NCBI GenBank assembly: GCA_021851875.1
Contig: JAJZQI010000008.1
Location: 1-48,358, forward strand
Direction: 5' to 3'
Length of the DNA: 48,358 nucleotides
Source: Pseudomonadota bacterium
Lineage (GTDB): Bacteria > Pseudomonadota > Gammaproteobacteria > Burkholderiales > JAJZQI01
Shown here: positions 31,182-42,469 of the stretch, one piece after another
Layout: each line of letters begins with the position of its first letter
How positions within the stretch are numbered: the first letter of the stretch is position 1
Notes under the pieces: generated by a model
What the model saw: only the letters and a program-made list of their open reading frames with translations
What the model was told of the DNA's origin: nothing
Databases searched by the model: none
Position numbers and translations under genes: made by a program

Positions 31182-31937
31182 ATGAAAACTGGTCAAGTGT
31201 TTTTGATTGGAGCCGGCCCGGGTGATCCCGAGTTAATCACCCTGAAGGCTGTACGCTGCCTGCAACAGGCCGATTTTGTATTGCTTGATGATTTGGTGAA
31301 CCGTGCCGTTCTGGAGCATGTTCGCCCCGGTGCCCGGGTAGTGGAAGTGGGCAAGCGGGGCGGCTGCAAATCGACGCCCCAGCGATTCATCACCCGCCAG
31401 CTGATTCGTCTTGCCCGCCAGGGTTGGACGGTGGTGCGGCTGAAAGGTGGCGACCCGTTCATGTTTGGACGGGGGGGCGAAGAGATGATGGCGTTGCGGC
31501 AAGCCGGCATTACTTGCGAAATCGTAAATGGCGTCACGTCCGGCTTCGCGGCTGCCTCGGGTATCGGGGTGCCGTTGACTCACCGTGATTTTTCCCAGGG
31601 CGTCGCTTTCGTGACCGGGCATACACAGTCCGGCGGAGCGGTCGAATGGGCAGGGTTGGTGCAAAGTGGCCTGACTCTGGTTGTGTATATGGGTATGAAA
31701 AATCTGGCTGCCATCGTCGGCAGCCTGCGGCAGGCCGGTATGCCTGCTGATATGCCAGTTGCCGTCATTCAGCACGGCAGTTTGCCTTATCAGCGCCATC
31801 TGGTTGCCACTCTCGATAATGTGGTCGAGCAAGTAGCAATGGAAGAACTGGGGAGTCCGTCGATCGTCGTGATCGGCAAAGTGGTTGGACTTGCCGGAAC
31901 TGAAGAATTGACCGCACTGGTTGCCAAGGCAGCCTAA
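31182..31937 (+). CDS. cobA: Uroporphyrinogen-III C-methyltransferase
   Basis: A 251-residue SUMT that methylates uroporphyrinogen III twice with SAM to precorrin-2, the first step to the sirohaem needed by NirB. Motifs: VFLIGAGPGDPELITLKA, VVRLKGGDPFMFGRGGEE, VNGVTSGFAAASGIGVPLTHRDFS and VTGH. It lacks the dehydrogenase/ferrochelatase half of CysG, which must be encoded elsewhere. The ATG at 31182 follows AAAGGTGG; upstream in-frame codons overlap the promoter. First gene of the nitrite-reductase operon. Confidence 0.95.
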   Translation: MKTGQVFLIGAGPGDPELITLKAVRCLQQADFVLLDDLVNRAVLEHVRPGARVVEVGKRGGCKSTPQRFITRQLIRLARQGWTVVRLKGGDPFMFGRGGEEMMALRQAGITCEIVNGVTSGFAAASGIGVPLTHRDFSQGVAFVTGHTQSGGAVEWAGLVQSGLTLVVYMGMKNLAAIVGSLRQAGMPADMPVAVIQHGSLPYQRHLVATLDNVVEQVAMEELGSPSIVVIGKVVGLAGTEELTALVAKAA

Positions 31938-31949
31938 TGGAGAATGGCA

Positions 31950-34379
31950 ATGAAAAAAATGAAGCTGGTAATGATTGGCAATGGCATGGCCGGCGTGCGC
32001 ACGCTGGAAGAATTGCTCAAGCTCTCTCCCGATCTTTATGAAATAACCGTATTTGGCGCCGAGCCGCATGCCAACTACAACCGCATTCTGCTGTCGCCGG
32101 TGCTGGCGGGTGAGCAGACCATCAAAGACATCATGCTCAACGATGTCGACTGGTACGAAGAAAATGGCATCACTCTGCATCTGAACAAATTCGTCAACAA
32201 GATCGATCGTGTCAAGCGCGTGGTCTACGCCGAAGACGGCACCACGGCCGAGTATGACCGGCTGATTCTGGCGACCGGCTCCAACCCCTTTATTCTGCCC
32301 GTCCCCGGCAAGGATCTGCCCGGTGTGATCGGTTTCCGTGACATCAAGGACGTCGACAGCATGATCGACGCGGCCAAGAGCTACAAGCACGCCGTGGTGA
32401 TCGGTGGCGGTCTGCTGGGACTGGAAGCGGCCAACGGGCTGAAGATTCAGGGCATGGACGTGTCCGTTGTGCACATCGGTGAATGGTTGCTGGATCGTCA
32501 GCTGGACAAGCCGGCGGCCAAATTGCTGCAAAAGAGCCTGGAAGACAAGGGGCTCAATTTTCTGTTGCAGAAAAACACCGCCGAGCTGGTGCAGGGCGAA
32601 TCCGGCCGCGTGTGTGCGGTGAAATTCAGCGACGGCACAACGGTGCCGGCCGATCTGGTGGTGATGGCTGTGGGTATCCGTCCCAACACCTGGCTGGCGG
32701 AGCAGTCCGGTATCCATTGCAACCGCGGTATCGTGGTGAACGACACCATGCAGACCTACGATCCGCGCATCTACGCCGTGGGCGAGTGCGTCAACCATCG
32801 CGGCATTGCCTACGGGCTGGTGGCGCCGCTGTTCGAAATGGCCAAGGTGTGCGCCAATCATCTGGCGGAAATGGGCATCGGCCGCTACACCGGCTCGCTC
32901 ACCTCGACCAAGCTGAAAGTGACCGGCATCGACCTGTTCTCCGCCGGCAATTTCATGGGCGACGATAAGACCGAGGAGATTTTGCTGTCCGACCCGGTTG
33001 GCGGGGTGTACAAGAAGCTGGTGATCCAGGACGATAAACTGGTCGGCGCGGTGTTGTACGGCGATACGGTGGATGGCGCATATTACTTCCAGTTGCTGCG
33101 TGAAGGCCGCCATATCGGCGACATTCGCGACCATTTGATGTTCGGTCAGAGCCATATCGGCGATCTGGGGCACCAGGGTCAGAACAAGGCGGCCGCCATG
33201 TCCGACGAAGCCGAGGTATGCGGCTGCAACGGCGTGTGCAAGGGCTCCATCGTCAAGGCCATCAAGGAAAAGGGCCTGTTCACCCTGGACGAGGTGCGCA
33301 AGCACACCAAGGCGTCGGCTTCCTGCGGCTCCTGTACCGGTCTGGTGGAGCAGATTCTGGCCACCACGCTGGGCGGCGATTATTCCACCACGCCCAAATC
33401 CAAGCCCATGTGCGGCTGCACCGACCACACCCACGACGAGGTGCGCGCGGCCATCCGCGACAACAAACTGCTGTCCATTCCGGCGGTGCAGCAATTCCTC
33501 GAGTGGCGCACGCCCAACGGCTGCGCATCCTGCCGTCCGGCACTGAACTATTACCTGATTTCCTCCTGGCCGGGCGAGGCAGAAGACGATCCGCAGTCGC
33601 GTTTCATCAACGAACGCGCGCATGCCAATATTCAGAAGGACGGCACGTATTCTGTCATTCCGCGCATGTGGGGCGGCCTGACCACGCCGTCCGAGCTGAA
33701 GCGTATTGCCATTGTGGCCGAGAAGTACAACATCCCGACCGTGAAGGTGACCGGCGGGCAGCGTATCGACCTGCTGGGCGTGAAAAAGGAAGATCTGCCG
33801 GGCGTATGGGCCGATCTCGACATGCCCTGCGGCCATGCCTACGGCAAGGCGCTGCGCACCGTGAAAACCTGTGTCGGTTCGGAATGGTGCCGTTTCGGCA
33901 CGCAGGATTCGACCGGCCTGGGCGTGATGATCGAAAAGGCGTTCTGGAAAATGTGGGCGCCGCACAAGGTGAAATTCGCCGTGTCCGGCTGCCCGCGCAA
34001 TTGCGCCGAAGTGGCGATCAAGGACGTGGGCGTGCTGGGGGTGGATTCCGGCTGGGAAATCTACATCGCCGGCAACGGCGGCATCAAGACCGAAGTCGCC
34101 CAGTTTTTCATCAAGGTGAAAACACCCGAAGAAGTGCTGGAATATTCCGGCGCCTTCATCCAGCTGTACCGTGAAGAGGGGCATTACCTCGACCGCACCG
34201 TGCATTACCTCGAAAAGGTGGGCATGGACTACGTGAAAAAGCGCGTGCTGGAAGACGGGGCGGGGCGCAAGGCCTTGTACGAGCGCCTGCTGTTTGCCCT
34301 GGCACAGGAGAACGATCCGTGGGAAGAGCGTGCCACTGGCGGCGTAGCCAAGCATGAGTTTGAAACCCTGACCGTGTGA
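31950..34379 (+). CDS. nirB: Assimilatory nitrite reductase [NAD(P)H], large subunit
   Basis: An 809-residue enzyme that reduces nitrite to ammonium with six electrons. Order: FAD/NAD(P)H oxidoreductase (about 1-400; VMIGNGMAGVRTLEEL, VVIGGGLLGLEAANGL), a BFD-like [2Fe-2S] module (Cys424, 426, 459, 462), a second similar module (CGCTDH to NGCASC, about 488-528), and the sirohaem/4Fe-4S reductase part with Cys641, Cys647, Cys681 and Cys685 (TCVGSEWC; SGCPRNC). All cofactor cysteines are present. The ATG at 31950 has better spacing to GGAGA than the one at 31944. NirD is encoded two genes on. Confidence 0.97.
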   Translation: MKKMKLVMIGNGMAGVRTLEELLKLSPDLYEITVFGAEPHANYNRILLSPVLAGEQTIKDIMLNDVDWYEENGITLHLNKFVNKIDRVKRVVYAEDGTTAEYDRLILATGSNPFILPVPGKDLPGVIGFRDIKDVDSMIDAAKSYKHAVVIGGGLLGLEAANGLKIQGMDVSVVHIGEWLLDRQLDKPAAKLLQKSLEDKGLNFLLQKNTAELVQGESGRVCAVKFSDGTTVPADLVVMAVGIRPNTWLAEQSGIHCNRGIVVNDTMQTYDPRIYAVGECVNHRGIAYGLVAPLFEMAKVCANHLAEMGIGRYTGSLTSTKLKVTGIDLFSAGNFMGDDKTEEILLSDPVGGVYKKLVIQDDKLVGAVLYGDTVDGAYYFQLLREGRHIGDIRDHLMFGQSHIGDLGHQGQNKAAAMSDEAEVCGCNGVCKGSIVKAIKEKGLFTLDEVRKHTKASASCGSCTGLVEQILATTLGGDYSTTPKSKPMCGCTDHTHDEVRAAIRDNKLLSIPAVQQFLEWRTPNGCASCRPALNYYLISSWPGEAEDDPQSRFINERAHANIQKDGTYSVIPRMWGGLTTPSELKRIAIVAEKYNIPTVKVTGGQRIDLLGVKKEDLPGVWADLDMPCGHAYGKALRTVKTCVGSEWCRFGTQDSTGLGVMIEKAFWKMWAPHKVKFAVSGCPRNCAEVAIKDVGVLGVDSGWEIYIAGNGGIKTEVAQFFIKVKTPEEVLEYSGAFIQLYREEGHYLDRTVHYLEKVGMDYVKKRVLEDGAGRKALYERLLFALAQENDPWEERATGGVAKHEFETLTV

Positions 34380-34387
34380 GGCGCGCC

Positions 34388-35197
34388 ATGAGCACGAATC
34401 GAAGGAAATTTCTCTGGCAGATGGCGGCGCTGAGCGGTGTAACCTTGTTCGGTCAGCGGGCGATGGCCGCGCAAAAGGCAATGGCGCTGACCGCCGCCAT
34501 CAACAAGGCCGGCCGCCAGCGCATGCTGTCGCAGCGGATCACCAAAGCCTACTGTCAGCTGGGGCTCGGCGTGGTGCCCGACCAGTCGTTCAACATTCTG
34601 CACGAGTCGATCGGTCTGTTCGACAGCCAGCTGGCCGAGCTGGCGGATTATGCGCCGACCGAGCAGATCCGCGCCACGTATGCTCAGCTTTCCAGCGAGT
34701 GGGACGGTTTTCGCCGTATCGCGATCGAAAAGCCGACGCATGCCGGGGCCGTCAAACTGGCCGAGCTGAACGAGCGGGTGTTGCGCGTGGCGCACGCCGG
34801 CACGATTCAGCTGGAAGGCCTGTCGCACAGCCATGTGGGGCAACTGGTGAACGTGGCCGGCCGGCAGCGCATGCTGTCCCAGCGGGTCGCCAAGTTCTAC
34901 ATGTTGCGTGCCTGGGATGTGCCGGTGGTCAATCTGGCCGGGCAGTTGTCGCAGTCGCGCCGCGAATTCGTTTCGGCCATGAGCGATCTGCGGGTGGCCA
35001 AGGAAAACACCACGCTCATCAATCAGGATCTGGAGCTGGCGCGCAGTCAGTGGGCTTTCTATGAAGTGGCGCTGGACTATCAGGCGGGCGGCACGCACGA
35101 CAGCAAGCTGGAAGCCGCGGTGGCCACCAGCAGCGAACGCGTGCTGGAAGTGATGAATGATGTGACAGGGCTGTACGAGCACCTGTCGGAAAACTGA
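34388..35197 (+). CDS. Tat-exported protein with two PilJ/NarX-type P-box domains
   Basis: A 269-residue protein with a twin-arginine leader (STNRRKFLWQ, cleavage after AMA near residue 28). The mature part has two similar helical domains, each opening with a near-identical box: INKAGRQRMLSQR (38-50) and VNVAGRQRMLSQR (154-166). This is the PilJ N-terminal family motif, related to the P-box by which NarX/NarQ bind nitrate. There is no membrane anchor or output domain. The gene lies 8 bp after nirB and 17 bp before nirD, so it is made with nitrite reductase. A periplasmic nitrate/nitrite-binding role is inferred. Confidence 0.8.
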   Translation: MSTNRRKFLWQMAALSGVTLFGQRAMAAQKAMALTAAINKAGRQRMLSQRITKAYCQLGLGVVPDQSFNILHESIGLFDSQLAELADYAPTEQIRATYAQLSSEWDGFRRIAIEKPTHAGAVKLAELNERVLRVAHAGTIQLEGLSHSHVGQLVNVAGRQRMLSQRVAKFYMLRAWDVPVVNLAGQLSQSRREFVSAMSDLRVAKENTTLINQDLELARSQWAFYEVALDYQAGGTHDSKLEAAVATSSERVLEVMNDVTGLYEHLSEN

Positions 35198-35214: not shown

Positions 35215-35535
35215 ATGACCACATGGCTGAAAGTGTGTCCGATGGACAGTGTGCCGCGCCTGGGGGCGCGCGTGGTGAAAAGCAGTCAGGGGGATATCGC
35301 CGTTTTTCGCAACGCCGAAGACGAAGTGTTTGCCCTGTTCGACAAATGCCCGCACAAGGGCGGCCCGTTATCGCAAGGGATTGTGCACGGCAAGACCGTG
35401 ACCTGCCCCTTGCACGGCTGGAAAATCGGGCTGGCCGACGGTGCGGCGGAAGCGCCGGATGAAGGGTGTACGCGCCATTTCCCGGTGAAAGTCGAACACG
35501 GTGTGATCTATCTGAGTCTGGAGTGCAAGGCATGA
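35215..35535 (+). CDS. nirD: Nitrite reductase small subunit (Rieske-type)
   Basis: A 106-residue NirD with the Rieske-like fold: CPHKGGPLSQG and CPLHGWKI supply the CxH...CxxH ligands, so a [2Fe-2S] cluster is probable (many NirD proteins lack these residues). It completes NirBD. The stop codon overlaps the nasA start (ATGA), indicating coupling. Confidence 0.94.
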   Translation: MTTWLKVCPMDSVPRLGARVVKSSQGDIAVFRNAEDEVFALFDKCPHKGGPLSQGIVHGKTVTCPLHGWKIGLADGAAEAPDEGCTRHFPVKVEHGVIYLSLECKA

Positions 35536-36743
35536 CCAAGGATTTCTGGAAGGCGGGCCATCCGCCGACGCTGTTCGCCGCGTTTTTCTATTTTGATATC
35601 GCCTTCATGGTGTGGGTGATGCTGGGGCCTTTGGGTGTGCAGATTGCCTCGGAACTTGTCCTGACACCGGCGCAAAAAGGTTTGATGGTGGCTACCCCGG
35701 TTTTGTCCGGTGCCTTGTTGCGTATCGTGATGGGCTTGCTGGTTGATCATCTGAAACCGAAAAATGCCGGTCTGATCGGGCAGGTGATCGTGATTGCCGC
35801 GCTGACTGCCGCCTGGCTGTTCGGCATTCACAGCTACCAGCAGATTCTGCTGCTGGGTGCGGCCCTGGGTTTCGCCGGCGCGGCATTTGCGGTGGCCTTG
35901 CCGCTGGCATCGCGCTGGTACCCGCCGCAGTATCAGGGCACGGCCCTGGGAATTGCCGGCGCCGGCAATTCCGGCACCGTGCTGGCCGCGCTGTTTGCGC
36001 CGACGCTGGCGGTGATGTTCGGCTGGAACAATGTCTTCGGTCTGGCGCTCATTCCGCTTGGACTGGCGTTCATCGTCTATGTCGCCCTGGCCAAGGATGC
36101 GCCGGAATGCCCGCCGGCCAAATCGCTGGGCGAGTACATGGCGGTGCTGAAAGACAGGGACGCCTGGTGGTTCATGTTTTTCTACAGCGTGACGTTCGGC
36201 GGGTTTGTCGGCCTGGCCTCCAGTCTGACCATTTATTTCAATGATCAGTACGGTCTGGACCCGGTGACGGCCGGTTACTTCACCGCGGCCTGTGTGTTTG
36301 CCGGTTCGCTGGTCCGCCCGATTGGCGGCACCATTGCGGACCGAATCGGCGGTATTCGCACGCTGATGAGCATGTATTCCGCTGCGGCAGTGTGCCTGTT
36401 CCTGGTCAGCCTCGGCCTGTCGACCCGCTACACGGCGCTGGCCGTATTCGTCGGCGCCATGCTGAGTCTCGGCATGGGTAACGGGGCCGTGTTCCAACTG
36501 GTGCCGCAGCGTTTCCGCAAGGAAATCGGCGTCATGACCGGCCTGGTGGGCATGGCCGGCGGCGTGGGCGGTTTTTATCTGGCTTCCAGTCTGGGTTATT
36601 CCAAACAGGTCACCGGCAGCTATCAAATGGGCTTCACGATTTTTGCCGCATTGGCTGTGCTGGCACTGGTGGGTTTGACCAGCGTCAAGACCCGCTGGCG
36701 CACCACCTGGGGTGCGGCCAATGTCGCCGGGGCGCGTATCTGA
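35532..36743 (+). CDS. nasA: Nitrate/nitrite transporter, MFS (NarK/NasA type)
   Basis: A 403-residue, 12-helix major-facilitator protein that imports nitrate or exchanges nitrate and nitrite. The first helix contains FYFDIAFMVWVMLGPLGVQI; the nitrate signatures read GAGNSGTVLAALFAP (helix 5) and GMAGGVGGF (helix 11). The ATG at 35532 overlaps the nirD stop. Together with NirBD it places nitrate/nitrite uptake in the same transcript; a nitrate reductase gene (nasC-type) is not present in this window. Confidence 0.95.
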   Translation: MTKDFWKAGHPPTLFAAFFYFDIAFMVWVMLGPLGVQIASELVLTPAQKGLMVATPVLSGALLRIVMGLLVDHLKPKNAGLIGQVIVIAALTAAWLFGIHSYQQILLLGAALGFAGAAFAVALPLASRWYPPQYQGTALGIAGAGNSGTVLAALFAPTLAVMFGWNNVFGLALIPLGLAFIVYVALAKDAPECPPAKSLGEYMAVLKDRDAWWFMFFYSVTFGGFVGLASSLTIYFNDQYGLDPVTAGYFTAACVFAGSLVRPIGGTIADRIGGIRTLMSMYSAAAVCLFLVSLGLSTRYTALAVFVGAMLSLGMGNGAVFQLVPQRFRKEIGVMTGLVGMAGGVGGFYLASSLGYSKQVTGSYQMGFTIFAALAVLALVGLTSVKTRWRTTWGAANVAGARI

Positions 36744-36765
36744 GGCGTGTCCGGTGTAACGCCAG

Positions 36766-36797
36766 AAAACCCCGGTTACCCTTTGCCGGGGTTTTTT
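36766..36797 (+). terminator. Intrinsic terminator after nasA
   Basis: AAACCCCGG pairs with CCGGGGTTT (36767-36775 and 36786-36794) around a ten-base loop, and the T run continues to 36797. It ends the cobA-nasA transcript 24 bp after the stop. Confidence 0.9.
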
Positions 36798-36834
36798 GTT
36801 ATGTTGCACTGATAAAACCGCAAAGCATTTTCCC

Positions 36835-38523
36835 ATGAGCTTACAGGCACAATTCGGTCTGGCCACTCTGCAAGGGCCGCGCGAACGCAACGAGGATTTC
36901 GCCCGCATCGTCACGCCCGAGGGCGAGGCGGGCGTGACGCACGGCTGGCTGCTGGCGCTGGCCGACGGCGTGTCGGGCGGCAGTCACGGCAAGGAAGCGG
37001 CCGAGGCGGTGGTGCGCAATCTGTCGTCCGATTACTATGCCACGCCGGAAACCTGGGAGGTGCCCTATGCCCTGGACAAGGTGCTCGGCGCGATCAACAG
37101 TTGGCTGCACGGCCAGATTGCCAGCCGGCGCGAGCCGGGCGGCATGGCCACGACACTGACAGCTCTGGTGTTGCGACGCCGTCGCTACTGGCTGGCGCAT
37201 GTGGGCGACAGCCGCGCGTATTTGTGGCGCAACGGCCAACTGCAGCAGCTGAGCACCGATCACGTGTGGGACAACCCGGATATGAGCCACGTGCTCAAGC
37301 GCGCCATGGGCCTGGATCAGCATATCAATGTGGATTACAGCGACGGCGAGCTGCTGCCGGGCGACCTGTTCGTGCTGCTCTGCGACGGCGTGTGGGAGCC
37401 CTTGGGCGAGCCGCGCCTGCTGCAGTTGCTGCAGGCGGGACTGGAACCGCAGGCGTTGGCCAATGCACTGGTCGAGCAGGCGATAGCGGGCGGCGGGCGC
37501 GATAACGCCACGGTCGTGGCGGCGCGCATCGACAGCGTGCCGCAGGAGGATGGGCTGACGCGCGTGGAAGAGCTGGCCGTGCTGCCGGTGCCGAAGAAAT
37601 TGCCGTCCGGTGCCTGGCTGGATAATTATGAGATTGTCGAACTGGTGCACGAATCCCGCGCCACGCTCATTTACCGTGCACGCGACCGGCACAGCGGGCA
37701 GCAGGTCGCCATCAAAACGCTCAACGGCCTGCTGGCCCACGACAAGGCGGCGGCCGCCGCCCTGCTGCAGGAAGAGTGGCTGACGCGGCGGGTGCAATCG
37801 CATTATTTCCCGCAGGGGGTGCAGGAATATGCCGGCGGGCGCAGCTATCTGTATTACGCCATGAACTGGTACGACGGCGCGACGCTGCAGCAGCAGCTCG
37901 ACAACGGCGCGCACTTTACGCCGGCCGATGTCGCCTGGATGGGGATCCGGCTGTGCAAGGGGCTGGCCGCGCTGCACCGGCTGCAGGTACTGCATCGCGA
38001 TATCAAGCCCGCCAATGTGCATCAGGGGCGGGACGGCAAGCTGCACATCCTGGATTTGGGCGTGGCGGTTGCGGCAGCCGAAGAGGCCGGCGCGCACATG
38101 CCCGGCACGCCCAGTTTCATGGCGCCGGAACTGCTCGCCGGAGAGCGCGCCAGTGAGGCGAGCGAGGTCTACGCGCTGGGGGTGACGCTCTATCACTTGC
38201 TGACGCGCAAATACCCCTATGGGGAAATTGAACCGTTTCAGCGCCCCCGCTTTGGCGAGCCTGCGGCGCCCTCGCGCTATCGGCCCGATCTGCCCGCCTG
38301 GCTGGAGAATCTGCTGCTGCGCGCCGTTTGCGCAGATCGGGAGCAGCGTTTTTCCACCATGGACGAAATGCGGCTGGCACTCGAGCGGGGCGAGGCGCGG
38401 CCAGTCAGCCCGCCGCGGCCTGCGCCATTGGCGGAGCGTAACCCGCTGGTGCTGTGGCAGGCGATTGCCCTGCTGTCGATGCTGCTCAATATGCTGCTGC
38501 TTTATCTGTTTGCCATTTCATAA
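36835..38523 (+). CDS. PP2C phosphatase-Ser/Thr kinase fusion
   Basis: A 562-residue protein: PP2C-type phosphatase (about 5-235; RNEDF, ALADGVSGG with Asp44, AHVGDSRAYL, LLCDGVWE, GGRDNATV), kinase (about 262-530), and a C-terminal membrane helix (LWQAIALLSMLLNMLLLYLFAIS). The kinase has Lys294 (VAIK), HRDIKPANV (387-395) and DLG (407-409) in place of DFG, but its glycine loop is degenerate (VHESRATLIY). P. aeruginosa has a Ser/Thr kinase gene (PA1782) between nirB and nasA, so the association with nitrate assimilation is known; targets are not. It follows the nasA terminator by about 40 bp. Confidence 0.92.
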   Translation: MSLQAQFGLATLQGPRERNEDFARIVTPEGEAGVTHGWLLALADGVSGGSHGKEAAEAVVRNLSSDYYATPETWEVPYALDKVLGAINSWLHGQIASRREPGGMATTLTALVLRRRRYWLAHVGDSRAYLWRNGQLQQLSTDHVWDNPDMSHVLKRAMGLDQHINVDYSDGELLPGDLFVLLCDGVWEPLGEPRLLQLLQAGLEPQALANALVEQAIAGGGRDNATVVAARIDSVPQEDGLTRVEELAVLPVPKKLPSGAWLDNYEIVELVHESRATLIYRARDRHSGQQVAIKTLNGLLAHDKAAAAALLQEEWLTRRVQSHYFPQGVQEYAGGRSYLYYAMNWYDGATLQQQLDNGAHFTPADVAWMGIRLCKGLAALHRLQVLHRDIKPANVHQGRDGKLHILDLGVAVAAAEEAGAHMPGTPSFMAPELLAGERASEASEVYALGVTLYHLLTRKYPYGEIEPFQRPRFGEPAAPSRYRPDLPAWLENLLLRAVCADREQRFSTMDEMRLALERGEARPVSPPRPAPLAERNPLVLWQAIALLSMLLNMLLLYLFAIS

Positions 38524-38597: not shown

Positions 38598-39230
38598 ATG
38601 AGTACTATGTCAAAAACTACCGAATCCTCATCGATTTACCCGGAGCTTCCCTTTTACCAGGTGTATTTGTTCGATACTTCAGTCGAGCGCGCCGCTTTGC
38701 TGGAGGGCGTAATGGGTGAAATGGGCATGAACGTGGCAGTCAAAATTACCGGCATGCCTGATTTTGGTGCGGGTTTGGGGGAGGAGCATTCCCCGGCGCT
38801 GTTCATGGTGGGCTCGGATAGTCTTTCTGAACCCCTGCTGCGAGTGCTGGAAGAGCAATTGCGAACCAATTTGGTGCCGGTGGTGCTGGTTACCGGTGCG
38901 GCAGACTCGCAATCGATCCAGCAGGCTATCCGCATCGGCGTGTCGGCCTGCATTGTGGGCGGCGGGCTGGAGTTCCGCTTGCCGTCCGTGCTGACCATCG
39001 CCAAGGCGCGCTTCGACGAGGTGCAGGCCTTGCGCAGCGAGCTGGCGGAGGCGAATGCCCGCCTGAAGGAGCGTAAGGTGGTTGAAAAGGCGAAGGGCAT
39101 CCTGATGGAAAAGAAATCCATGAGTGAGGAGGCGGCCTATACCACGCTGCGCAAAATGGCCATGGAAAAGAACGTGCGCATGGGTGTGGTGGCCGAACAG
39201 GTGATCGCGCTGGCCGATTTGCTGGCGTAA
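38598..39230 (+). CDS. nasT: NasT-type ANTAR antitermination regulator
   Basis: A 210-residue RNA-binding regulator. Residues 15-140 have the receiver-like fold (YQVYLFDTSVERAALL, VVLVTGAADSQSIQQAIRIGVSACIVGG), but I cannot place a convincing phospho-acceptor Asp with its acidic pocket. Residues 145-210 are a coiled coil plus ANTAR domain (LKERKVVEKAKGILMEKKSMSEEAAYTTLRKMAMEKNVRM). It should bind the two-hairpin leader at 39293-39350 and prevent termination before the transporter genes. In other species NasS holds NasT inactive without nitrate; no NasS gene is next to it here. The start could also be the ATG at 38607. Confidence 0.92.
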   Translation: MSTMSKTTESSSIYPELPFYQVYLFDTSVERAALLEGVMGEMGMNVAVKITGMPDFGAGLGEEHSPALFMVGSDSLSEPLLRVLEEQLRTNLVPVVLVTGAADSQSIQQAIRIGVSACIVGGGLEFRLPSVLTIAKARFDEVQALRSELAEANARLKERKVVEKAKGILMEKKSMSEEAAYTTLRKMAMEKNVRMGVVAEQVIALADLLA

Positions 39231-39261: not shown

Positions 39262-39277
39262 TGGCACGGCTATTGCT
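39262..39277 (+). promoter_or_regulatory. Sigma-54 promoter of the nitrate ABC transporter operon
   Basis: TGGCACGGCTATTGCT is a full match to TGGCACG-N4-TTGCW, with GG at 39263-39264 and GC at 39275-39276. Transcription would start near 39288, just before the ANTAR leader hairpins. Confidence 0.82.
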
Positions 39278-39287
39278 TTTGTGAAAG

Positions 39288-39404
39288 CGAGACCGTTTGT
39301 CCAAAGGCGGACAAACGGGAAAGCTTGATTAAGGCGCCATGGACGGTGCCAAGCAGGGTGATGACGCCCATGAAGCGAAATGATTCGTTTCATGGGCGTT
39401 TTTT
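39288..39404 (+). ncRNA. ANTAR-target leader RNA (two hexaloop hairpins plus terminator)
   Basis: Hairpin 1 is a perfect ten-base-pair stem (CCGTTTGTCC 39293-39302, GGACAAACGG 39309-39318) with loop AAAGGC. Hairpin 2 is GGCGCC (39333-39338) and GGTGCC (39345-39350) with loop ATGGAC. Both loops have six bases with A at position 1 and G at position 4, the known ANTAR recognition pattern. A terminator follows at once. The nasT gene lies immediately upstream and the transporter genes downstream, as in the nasR/nasF system of Klebsiella. Confidence 0.88.
39364..39404 (+). terminator. Leader terminator controlled by NasT
   Basis: ACGCCCATGAA (39364-39374) pairs with TTCATGGGCGT (39389-39399), the inner CGAA/TTCG extends the stem, and six Ts end it at 39404. 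It lies 32 bp before the nrtA start codon and should stop transcription unless NasT binds the leader. Confidence 0.9.
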
Positions 39405-39435
39405 ATTTTATGGCTTGAATTAAGGAGTGGTAGGC

Positions 39436-40713
39436 ATGAAGGACGAAAAGAAAGTACAGAACAGCACCCCGAAGAATGAAAGCCGTCGCGATTTTCTCAA
39501 AACCGGCTCCATGGCATTGAGCGGCGCGGCGCTGATGGGCTTGCTGCCGGCCGGCGTGCGCAGCAACGCCTATGCAGCCGGCTCGGATGCGCCGGAAAAG
39601 ACCGAAGTGAAAATCGGCTTTATTCCGCTGACCGATTGCGCTTCCGTGGTGATCGCCTCGGTCATGGGCTTCGACAAGAAATACGGCATCAAGATTACCC
39701 CCAGCAAGGAAGCGTCCTGGGCGGCGGTGCGCGATAAGCTGGTGAATGGCGAACTGGATGCTTCCCACGTGCTGTACGGGCTGATTTACGGTCTGAACGT
39801 GGGCATCGGCGGCCCGAAAAAAGACATGGCCGTACTGATGAACATCAACAACAACGGCCAGGCGATTACGCTGTCCAACCAGCTGAAGGAAAAGAAAGCG
39901 GTGGATGGCGCAAGCCTGGCGCGCCTGGTCAAGACCGAGCCGCGCGAATACACCTTTGCCCAGACCTTTCCCACCGGCACCCATGCCATGTGGCTGTATT
40001 ACTGGCTGGCCACCTACGGCATCAACCCGCTGAGCGAAGTCAAAACCATTACCGTGCCGCCGCCGCAAATGGTTGCCAACATGCGTGTGGGCAAGATGGA
40101 CGGCTATTGTGTGGGCGAGCCGTGGGGCGCGCGCGCCATCCACGACAACATCGGTTTTACCGCCGTCACCAGCCAGGAAATCTGGAAGGATCACCCGGAA
40201 AAAGTGCTCGGCACCACGCTGGAATTTGTGCAGAAATACCCCAATACCGCCCGGGCGATGATCATGGCCCTGCTGGATGCGTCCAAGTACATCGACACCA
40301 TGGCGAACCGTTCGCAGGTGGCCAAGATCATTTCCGACAAGGCCTACGTCAACACCGACTTCGACTCCATTGAAGACCGCATGCTGGGGCAGTACAACAA
40401 TGGCAACGGCAAGGTGTGGCAGGACCCCAATTACATGAAGTTCTACAACGACGGCGCGGTCAACTTCCCCTATCTGTCGGACGGCATGTGGTTCCTCACC
40501 CAGCACAAGCGCTGGGGCCTGCTGAAGGACGACGTGGACTATCTGGCTGTGGCCAAGAAGATCAACCAGATCGAGCTGTACAAACAGGCTGCGGCGCAAA
40601 CCAAAACGCCGGTACCCAAAGACCTCATGCGTACCAGCAAGCTGATCGACGGCGCGGTATGGGACGGCAAGAATCCGAAGGCCTATGCTGCGAGCTTCAA
40701 GGTTCGCGCCTGA
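39436..40713 (+). CDS. nrtA: Nitrate/nitrite/cyanate ABC transporter, periplasmic binding protein
   Basis: A 425-residue NrtA/NasF-type binding protein with a twin-arginine leader (ESRRDFLKTGSMALSGAALMGLLPAG, residues 16-41). Family blocks: KIGFIPLTDCASVVIA, WAAVRDKLVNGELDASHVLYGL, GTHAMWLYYWLATYGINP, MRVGKMDGYCVGEPWGARAI. The leader peptide shows it is exported, so it is not the cytoplasmic sensor NasS. It is the first gene after the ANTAR leader. Substrate is uncertain: nitrate or nitrite by regulation, cyanate by the cynS neighbour. The ATG at 39436 follows AAGGAG. Confidence 0.92.
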   Translation: MKDEKKVQNSTPKNESRRDFLKTGSMALSGAALMGLLPAGVRSNAYAAGSDAPEKTEVKIGFIPLTDCASVVIASVMGFDKKYGIKITPSKEASWAAVRDKLVNGELDASHVLYGLIYGLNVGIGGPKKDMAVLMNINNNGQAITLSNQLKEKKAVDGASLARLVKTEPREYTFAQTFPTGTHAMWLYYWLATYGINPLSEVKTITVPPPQMVANMRVGKMDGYCVGEPWGARAIHDNIGFTAVTSQEIWKDHPEKVLGTTLEFVQKYPNTARAMIMALLDASKYIDTMANRSQVAKIISDKAYVNTDFDSIEDRMLGQYNNGNGKVWQDPNYMKFYNDGAVNFPYLSDGMWFLTQHKRWGLLKDDVDYLAVAKKINQIELYKQAAAQTKTPVPKDLMRTSKLIDGAVWDGKNPKAYAASFKVRA

Positions 40714-40724
40714 ACCACCTGATG

Positions 40725-40747
40725 CGGCGGGGGAGTGCCCCCCGCCG
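40725..40747 (+). promoter_or_regulatory. GC hairpin between nrtA and nrtB
   Basis: CGGCGGGGG and CCCCCGCCG form a nine-base-pair stem with a five-base loop, without a T run. Such hairpins after binding-protein genes often protect the upstream message and give more binding protein than permease; that role is inferred. Confidence 0.5.
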
Positions 40748-40761
40748 TAAGGAGCATCACC

Positions 40762-41658
40762 ATGAATACACTGAAATTGCACTCAAAGGACTGGCCTGCC
40801 ATGGAAAAGAATTCGAGCCCGGCCAAGGCGCCCAATCCGCTCAATCTGGTCATGCAGGTAAAAACCGGCAGCCGGCTGGCTGTCTGGCTGAAGGACAATA
40901 TTGCCGTCTGGCTCGCCCCCATCCTGGGTCTGATCCTGTTCATCGGGCTGTGGGACGTGATCTCCGGTACCAATCACGACCTGCCCGGCCCAGCCAAAAC
41001 CTGGGAATCCGCCAAGACGCTGTTTGCCCATCCGTTCTATGACAATGGCCCCAACGACGTCGGCATCGGCTGGAATGTGTTGTATTCCCTCAAACGGGTC
41101 GGCACGGGCTTTGGCATGGCCGCCCTGATCGGCATTCCCTTGGGTTTTATGGTTGGCCGCTTCAAGTTTCTGTTCGGCATGACTTCGCCCATCATCAGCC
41201 TGCTGCGTCCCGTTTCGCCGCTGGCCTGGCTACCTATCGGCCTGCTGGTGTTCAAAAATACCGAGCCGGCTGCGATCTGGGTGATTTTCATCTCCAGCAT
41301 CTGGCCCATGATCATCAACACCGCCGTGGGTGTGTCGAAAGTGCCCGAAGACTACATGAACGTGGCTCGGGTGCTGAATCTGTCTGAATGGAAAATTTTC
41401 ACCAAGATTCTCTTTCCGGCCGTGCTGCCCTACATGCTGACCGGCGTGCGTCTGGCAATCGGCGTGGCCTGGCTGGTGATCGTGGCGGCCGAAATGCTGA
41501 CCGGCGGCACGGGCATCGGCTTCTGGGTGTGGGACGAGTGGAACAATCTGAACGTCGAACACATCATCATCGCTATCTTCATTGTGGGCATCGTCGGTTT
41601 GATTCTCGAGCAGGCGCTCATTTTCATCGCCAAGCGCTTCTCCTACGGCGAACTGTAA
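40762..41658 (+). CDS. nrtB: Nitrate/nitrite/cyanate ABC transporter, permease
   Basis: A 298-residue inner-membrane permease of the NrtB/NasE/SsuC group with six membrane helices. The signature for contact with the ATPase is EDYMNVARVLNLSEWKIFTKILFPAVLPYMLTGVR. The ATG at 40762 follows AAGGAG, 48 bp after nrtA and just behind a GC hairpin. The ATPase gene follows 10 bp later. Confidence 0.93.
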   Translation: MNTLKLHSKDWPAMEKNSSPAKAPNPLNLVMQVKTGSRLAVWLKDNIAVWLAPILGLILFIGLWDVISGTNHDLPGPAKTWESAKTLFAHPFYDNGPNDVGIGWNVLYSLKRVGTGFGMAALIGIPLGFMVGRFKFLFGMTSPIISLLRPVSPLAWLPIGLLVFKNTEPAAIWVIFISSIWPMIINTAVGVSKVPEDYMNVARVLNLSEWKIFTKILFPAVLPYMLTGVRLAIGVAWLVIVAAEMLTGGTGIGFWVWDEWNNLNVEHIIIAIFIVGIVGLILEQALIFIAKRFSYGEL

Positions 41659-41668
41659 GGAACTCATC

Positions 41669-42469
41669 ATGGAAAAGACCGATAAATTTGTGCAGATCGA
41701 AGACGCCAACATGGTGTTTCATACCAGAAAGGGCGCTTTTCACGCCTTGCGCGACATCAACCTCAACATCGCCCAGGGTGAATTCGTTTCGCTCATCGGC
41801 CACTCAGGCTGCGGCAAGTCGACGCTGCTGAATCTGGTAGCCGGGCTGCTCAAACCCAGCAACGGCGTCATGTTATGCGCCGGGCGCGAAATCAAGGGAC
41901 CGGGTCCGGAGCGCGCCGTGGTGTTCCAGAACCACAGCCTGCTGCCGTGGCTGACCTGTTACGACAACGTGTATCTGGCGGTTGAGCGCGTTTTTGCCAA
42001 GCAGGAGAAAAAATCCAAGCTGCAGGAGCGCAGCAAGGCGGCGCTGGCCATGGTGGGGTTGGCGCATGCCGAGCACAAGTATCCGGGGGAGATCTCCGGC
42101 GGCATGAAGCAGCGTGTGGGGATTGCCCGCGCGCTGGCCATGGAACCGCAAGTGCTGTTGATGGACGAGCCGTTCGGCGCGCTGGATGCGCTCACCCGCG
42201 CCAATTTGCAGGACGAGCTGATCCGCATTGCCGGGGACATCAAGAGCACCGTCATCATGGTGACGCACGATGTGGACGAGGCCGTGCTGCTGTCCGACCG
42301 CATTGTCATGATGACCAACGGTCCGGCTGCCACCATCGGCGAGATTCTGCATGTCGACCTGCCGCGTCCGCGCAACCGGCTGGAGCTGGCAAATGATCCG
42401 CGTTATCACCATTTCCGTTCCGAAGTCATGACCTTCCTGTACCAGAAACAGCTGCGTCCGGCAGCTTAG
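41669..42469 (+). CDS. nrtD: Nitrate/nitrite/cyanate ABC transporter, ATP-binding protein
   Basis: A 266-residue ATPase of the NrtD/NasD type. Walker A GHSGCGKST, Q-loop VVFQNHSLLPW, signature ISGGMKQRVGIARALA, Walker B VLLMDEPFGALDALTR and H-loop VTHDVDEAVLLSDRIVMM. It lacks the extra NrtA-like C-terminal domain of cyanobacterial NrtC, so the transporter is of the simple NasFED/CynABD form. The cynS start follows 87 bp later. Confidence 0.95.
   Translation: MEKTDKFVQIEDANMVFHTRKGAFHALRDINLNIAQGEFVSLIGHSGCGKSTLLNLVAGLLKPSNGVMLCAGREIKGPGPERAVVFQNHSLLPWLTCYDNVYLAVERVFAKQEKKSKLQERSKAALAMVGLAHAEHKYPGEISGGMKQRVGIARALAMEPQVLLMDEPFGALDALTRANLQDELIRIAGDIKSTVIMVTHDVDEAVLLSDRIVMMTNGPAATIGEILHVDLPRPRNRLELANDPRYHHFRSEVMTFLYQKQLRPAA

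Follow-up and report, generated by a model that had tools for sequence, protein, structure and literature searches.

The gene at positions 34388–35197 (+) of the window, the 48,358-nucleotide stretch of DNA analysed here, encodes a 269-aa protein (ATG at 34388, TGA ending at 35197) that we read as an exported, stand-alone nitrate-binding protein of nitrate assimilation, acting as a detached sensor domain or co-receptor; we place this reading a little above even odds, at roughly 0.55. Its building blocks, the PilJ domain and the N-box, are known, and what appears to be new, judged from sequence, is a stand-alone exported pair of PilJ domains of the nitrate-binding type. The known nitrate sensors of this fold are either membrane receptors (NarX, NarQ and McpN) or the cytoplasmic regulator NasR, and a nitrate-binding sensor domain exported on its own would, if the reading is true, be a new layout, carried in widespread assimilation operons, often with the genes for the two subunits of a single enzyme on either side. 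The open-access literature searched, which includes little from subscription journals, describes no PilJ pair that is exported and stands alone.

The PilJ profile (PF13675) matched the protein in two stretches with a score of 83.2 bits, well above the gathering threshold of 26.6, and no other domain was found in its 269 residues by Pfam. The NIT profile (PF08376) gave no Pfam match at E ≤ 1, the NMT1_2 domain of NrtA/NasS-type proteins (PF13379), which Pfam detects in the NrtA of the window, was absent, and no NCBIfam family covers the protein. Residues 34–266 are all bundle in the AlphaFold2 model, leaving neither the transmembrane segments nor the signalling domain of a transmembrane PilJ-type receptor, in agreement with the first-pass annotation, which had described the protein as having no membrane or signalling part. 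When the two halves of the protein were aligned to each other the score was 80, compared with a mean of 27 (sd 4.7) and a maximum of 53 in 1000 shuffles.

The paper on McpN (PMC6381276) defines the N-box, [IVL][ND]xAGxQRML[ST]Q, as diagnostic of PilJ domains that bind nitrate. Exact matches, GxxR included, are found twice in the protein, in INKAGRQRMLSQ (residues 38–49; 34499–34534, +) and VNVAGRQRMLSQ (residues 154–165; 34847–34882, +). What had earlier been noticed as two P-box-like stretches fit the N-box, and the six frames of the window contain no further match to the published motif. A chance motif was rejected on the half-to-half alignment score together with the expectation from composition, which is about 6e-9 matches per protein. 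Gly 42, Arg 45, Gly 158 and Arg 161 are invariant in 78 relatives, in which mean column identity is 45%. Both boxes are kept in 72 of 80 relatives among the matches listed if the Ala may be Ser, and the distance between them is 115–117 residues in every relative where both were found. In McpN, Arg 61 of each chain hydrogen-bonds one nitrate at the dimer axis (PMC6381276); the equivalent residues here are Arg 45 and Arg 161.

On these grounds we infer that nitrate is probably the ligand. It is improbable, in our judgement, that the N-boxes are a relic of the shared fold and that the ligand is something else, such as another anion, nitrite or a protein. PilJ and NIT domains that do not bind nitrate exist, NarX and NarQ bind nitrite and sulfite as well (PMC6381276), and many relatives of the gene lie outside visible nitrogen loci; against this stand the exact N-box present twice with an invariant GxxR and the enrichment of the gene beside nitrogen oxyanion genes. 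Nitrate binding is absent in the ligand domains of Pseudomonas aeruginosa PilJ and PA4520, and the former has no N-box (PMC6381276). Five loci (L016, L019, L020, L021 and L022) encode related PilJ-like pairs, also exported, whose N-boxes are decayed and lack GxxR; these are probably paralogues with another ligand.

The AlphaFold2 model, built with 78 sequences, has a pLDDT of 92.8 and a pTM of 0.86. The eight helices that follow the signal form two four-helix bundles, in agreement with the two Pfam stretches, spanning residues 34–146 (34487–34825, +) and 149–266 (34832–35185, +) and joined by a two-residue turn, which from the topology would set the second box-bearing helix parallel to the first. 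The best match among solved structures (VIA) is the nitrate receptor of the antiterminator NasR (4akk_B), with a Z-score of 19.4 and an rmsd of 3.4 over 235 residues between positions 31 and 269, whereas the second-best row has a Z-score of 12.3, near the level common for helical bundles with this tool. McpN (6gcv) superposes on one bundle at about 2.1–2.5 Å, and NarQ and the periplasmic region of P. aeruginosa PilJ each match one bundle. A side-by-side pair of bundles as in NasR is therefore present in the predicted model, and because the NasR match spans both bundles the fold resembles a pseudo-dimer contained in a single chain, its one nitrate site formed by Arg 45 and Arg 161; this would account for the presence of two boxes in one protein. 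By prediction, then, the protein is a NIT-like receptor built of two PilJ domains, the assignment to PilJ rather than to Pfam NIT being that of the profiles.

Each of the known systems shares part of this arrangement. The ligand-binding domain of McpN (PA2788, PDB 6GCV) has the same PilJ domain (PF13675) and N-box, but McpN is a membrane chemoreceptor in which two chains dimerise, whereas here both halves belong to a single exported, soluble chain that lacks a signalling domain. The sensor domains of NarX and NarQ carry the GxxR nitrate motif (P-box) in the first helix of a four-helix bundle, although these are membrane histidine kinases that form two-chain dimers with one box per chain. NasR (PDB 4AKK, PF08376) also holds two four-helix bundles in one chain, and its asymmetric site with two arginines resembles the predicted Arg 45/Arg 161 site; however, NasR is cytoplasmic and coupled to an ANTAR domain, while the twin-PilJ protein has no Pfam NIT match and possesses two full N-boxes. 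Tandem PilJ domains are also a feature of type IV pilus PilJ (7ZJR, 8WDF), a membrane receptor with no N-box and no nitrate binding, whose match to the model is limited to one bundle. A role as type IV pilus PilJ, hinted at by the Pfam name, was rejected: the boxes and the fold suit nitrate receptors, and the PilJ-like protein of this genome, a type IV pilus chemoreceptor without N-boxes, is a separate protein and the only other one in the genome with a PilJ domain.

The earlier observation that the gene is wedged between nirB and nirD is confirmed by profiles: upstream lies nirB (31944–34379, +; TIGR02374, 948.8 bits), the large subunit of nitrite reductase, and downstream nirD (35215–35535, +; TIGR02378, 95.5 bits), the small subunit. 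By Pfam and NCBIfam profiles nirB is preceded by a uroporphyrinogen-III C-methyltransferase gene of the cobA/cysG-C type (31185–31937, +; siroheme for NirB), and nirD is followed by a nitrate/nitrite MFS transporter gene of the NarK/NasA family (35532–36743, +; TIGR00886, E 1.5e-85), whose score of 287.5 bits is below the curated 311.7. The gaps on either side of the gene are 8 bp (to nirB) and 17 bp (to nirD), nirD and nasA share ATGA in an overlap, and behind nasA stands a strong hairpin of terminator type (36763–36798, +). These features make cobA, nirB, the twin-PilJ gene, nirD and nasA resemble one transcription unit; they fit co-transcription without proving it. Beyond the hairpin, still on the + strand, are a PP2C phosphatase-Ser/Thr kinase fusion (36838–38523; Pfam), of a kind frequent in nas clusters among the loci of relatives, a NasT-like ANTAR antiterminator (38598–39230), by Pfam and profile search the genome's sole ANTAR protein, and nrtABC (39427–42469; Pfam and NCBIfam profiles), a nitrate ABC transporter whose NrtA has a Tat-like signal.

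Gene contexts were surveyed in the best 80 named loci of the best-hit list, a sample skewed to close relatives. Among these listed matches 35 of the 80 loci are nir/nas-linked: 26 have the gene exactly between nirB and nirD, four have nirB directly upstream, three have it between nasA and the kinase gene, and two have nir genes nearby. The other 45 are in different contexts, most of them without visible nitrogen genes, so that the function may be broader. Many copies from Rhodocyclales and Oxalobacteraceae are surrounded by housekeeping genes. Across the order, in 399 genomes, NirD was found in 38 of 49 carriers of the gene versus 135 of 350 non-carriers (Fisher 2e-7, ignoring kinship); the co-occurrence with nir/nas genes whose absence was to count against the earlier receptor idea is thus present both here and in the 35 linked loci among the matches listed. 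Further kinds of nitrogen locus were also seen. In a Hydrogenophilales locus (L030:6197-10765, +) containing two narK genes, a 1238-aa gene, a Pfam-confirmed narH and two small nar-like genes, the twin-PilJ gene lies after a PPIC-type isomerase gene, downstream of narH, in a respiratory nitrate reductase (narGHJI-type) context. In two Sulfuricellaceae loci (L027:6265-10741 and L036:5583-9084, +) it comes shortly after genes for a cytochrome-d1-domain (NirF-like) protein and a siroheme decarboxylase (NirDL), and the surroundings are a heme d1 nitrite reductase cluster. As for plasmid copies, two Cupriavidus replicons were found, and the one examined had no gene annotation.

A frozen ancestral operon was rejected as the full cause of the linkage, because the slots between nirB and nirD, between nasA and the kinase gene and between nrtC and nasA occur in separate lineages. 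In the protein tree the copy of the window falls outside the Comamonadaceae clade with the gene between nirB and nirD, and its well-supported branches require three or more changes of context. In the NirB tree the window groups with family f35, which has the gene in the same nirB/nirD slot and a NirB of up to 83% identity, and both adjoin lineages with the copy elsewhere in the operon, the Comamonadaceae being set apart; this tree, drawn without a known root from the NirBs of gene-holding loci only, does not fix the number of insertions. From these sequence comparisons the gene appears to have been recruited into nir/nas clusters several separate times.

The N-terminus, MSTNRRKFLWQMAALSGVTLFGQRAMA, is Tat-like, with a predicted signal peptide at residues 1–27 (NRRKFLW ... 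AMA, with AQ following; 34388–34468, +), all Tat calls having been read from the sequence motif rather than made with a dedicated Tat predictor. TatC is encoded in the genome, so that both the signal and TatC are in place for a Tat substrate, and the Tat export signal claimed in the first-pass annotation is upheld; export of the protein is very likely. A twin-arginine signal is present in all 35 nir/nas-linked standalone copies versus 17 of the 45 others among the matches listed (Fisher 4e-10, with start codons picked by rule and kinship not removed). A Sec-type signal is found in L115, a nas-linked copy from a later sample; a Tat signal is therefore frequent without being obligatory. Since some relatives, this nas-linked one included, carry Sec-type signals, Tat gives no evidence of a cofactor, and the cofactor formerly deduced from it is dropped; the idea of a nitrate/nitrite receptor is otherwise partly supported, by the N-boxes, the predicted NasR-like fold and the nir/nas co-occurrence. 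An enzyme or cofactor protein was rejected on the same signals and on the lack of any enzyme or cofactor domain by Pfam and NCBIfam.

The mechanism that we propose would begin with synthesis of the protein together with NirB, NirD and NasA and its passage to the periplasm by Tat. The two PilJ-type bundles of the one chain would lie next to each other, in the manner of the NasR NIT receptor, giving a built-in dimer, and one nitrate would be held between the two N-boxes, gripped by Arg 45 and Arg 161, much as a nitrate occupies the dimer axis of McpN, NarX and NarQ. Periplasmic nitrate would then be reported through a ligand-dependent change read by a partner, although we give sensory output by way of a partner slightly less than an even chance. 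A role as periplasmic nitrate sensor or co-receptor is most likely, rather than one as a periplasmic nitrate/nitrite reservoir or feeder, which would bind the ion once past the outer membrane and hand it to NasA or NrtABC. The export signal, the co-encoding with nasA close to nrtABC and, in other lineages, the placement of the gene next to nasA, with nrtC (L115) or the kinase gene (L054, L058, L073 and L112) on its other side, speak for a feeder. We nevertheless consider it unlikely, since MFS nitrate transporters are not known to need binding proteins, NrtA already serves the ABC transporter of the cluster, and some loci hold a copy but no visible nitrate transporter. The affinity of a PilJ dimer-axis site for nitrate is also modest, 47 uM in McpN (PMC6381276). 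NrtA and NasS (PF13379) have the soluble nitrate-binding role proposed for the protein and occur in the same clusters, and the NrtA of the window is likewise Tat-like, but in fold and sequence they are unrelated to it.

Statements on the whole genome, which is 98.75% complete, rest on profile searches. No NarX/NarQ-type PilJ kinase was seen in these searches, no second NrtA/NasS-like protein was found, and no obvious partner for the twin-PilJ protein emerged from them. NasT is present at 38598–39230, and a NasS-like protein is absent from its surroundings (39427–40713 included) and from the genome. The best nitrate reductase candidate is a molybdopterin protein on contig C26, to which the PhsA, Fdh and NasC models match partly. 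One separate NIT-domain protein, of about 298 aa, is encoded in the genome of the window (G000), directly after an MCP-type signalling gene on contig C50 (L130:1366-2259, +). Between nasT and nrtA, at 39263–39400 (+), a match to the Rfam narK RNA scores 27 bits, short of the 43.2-bit cut-off, and just behind it comes a terminator-like hairpin of 17 pairs ending in a T tail; this element is possibly a NasT-controlled leader of nrtABC.

The twin-PilJ module is also found fused behind the receiver-ANTAR part of NasT in at least eight loci, mostly nas clusters of Comamonadaceae (L042:2939-4198, −; also L060, L061, L069, L076, L084, L090 and L123). The fused module lacks a signal peptide and keeps GxxR in both boxes, and in the model of the fusion it again matches NasR best (Z 19.0), while the N-terminal part matches the antiterminator EutV. 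On its predicted structure the fusion would be a nitrate antiterminator of a single component, NasR-like in build but with the domain order reversed and cytoplasmic PilJ domains as the receptor; this suggests a mode of cytoplasmic nitrate sensing where NasS is missing. No description of it was found in the open-access literature. The receptor module would thus serve in the cytoplasm as well as in the periplasm, and four clusters (L042, L061, L069 and L090) hold an exported copy together with a fusion.

These fusions, together with a genome that has NasT and no second NrtA/NasS-like protein, lend some weight to a cytoplasmic or not-yet-exported nitrate receptor that controls NasT in place of NasS, the signal peptide simply ending its action; since a Tat substrate is already folded when it leaves the cytoplasm, it could have bound nitrate there. 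This we hold to be quite improbable, as the twin-arginine signal of every nir/nas-linked standalone copy among the matches listed makes export look selected, and in the four clusters with both forms the exported copy is not a missing sensor. Taking the detached exported sensor or co-receptor further, we propose, tentatively and with odds well below even, a new class of single-chain NIT-like pseudo-dimers that sense periplasmic nitrate and inform a transporter or a partner in the membrane, tuning nitrate assimilation; they would have been recruited repeatedly into nir/nas operons, with a NasT-fused sister doing the same inside the cell. In Ralstonia/Cupriavidus loci (L024:9160-9945, L031:5922-6707 and L099:9130-9915, +) the gene immediately before the exported twin-PilJ gene encodes a 262-aa protein with one N-box PilJ domain, a short MCP-like stretch and no evident signal peptide; in Comamonadaceae, relatives of this protein are found within a few kb of nirBD.
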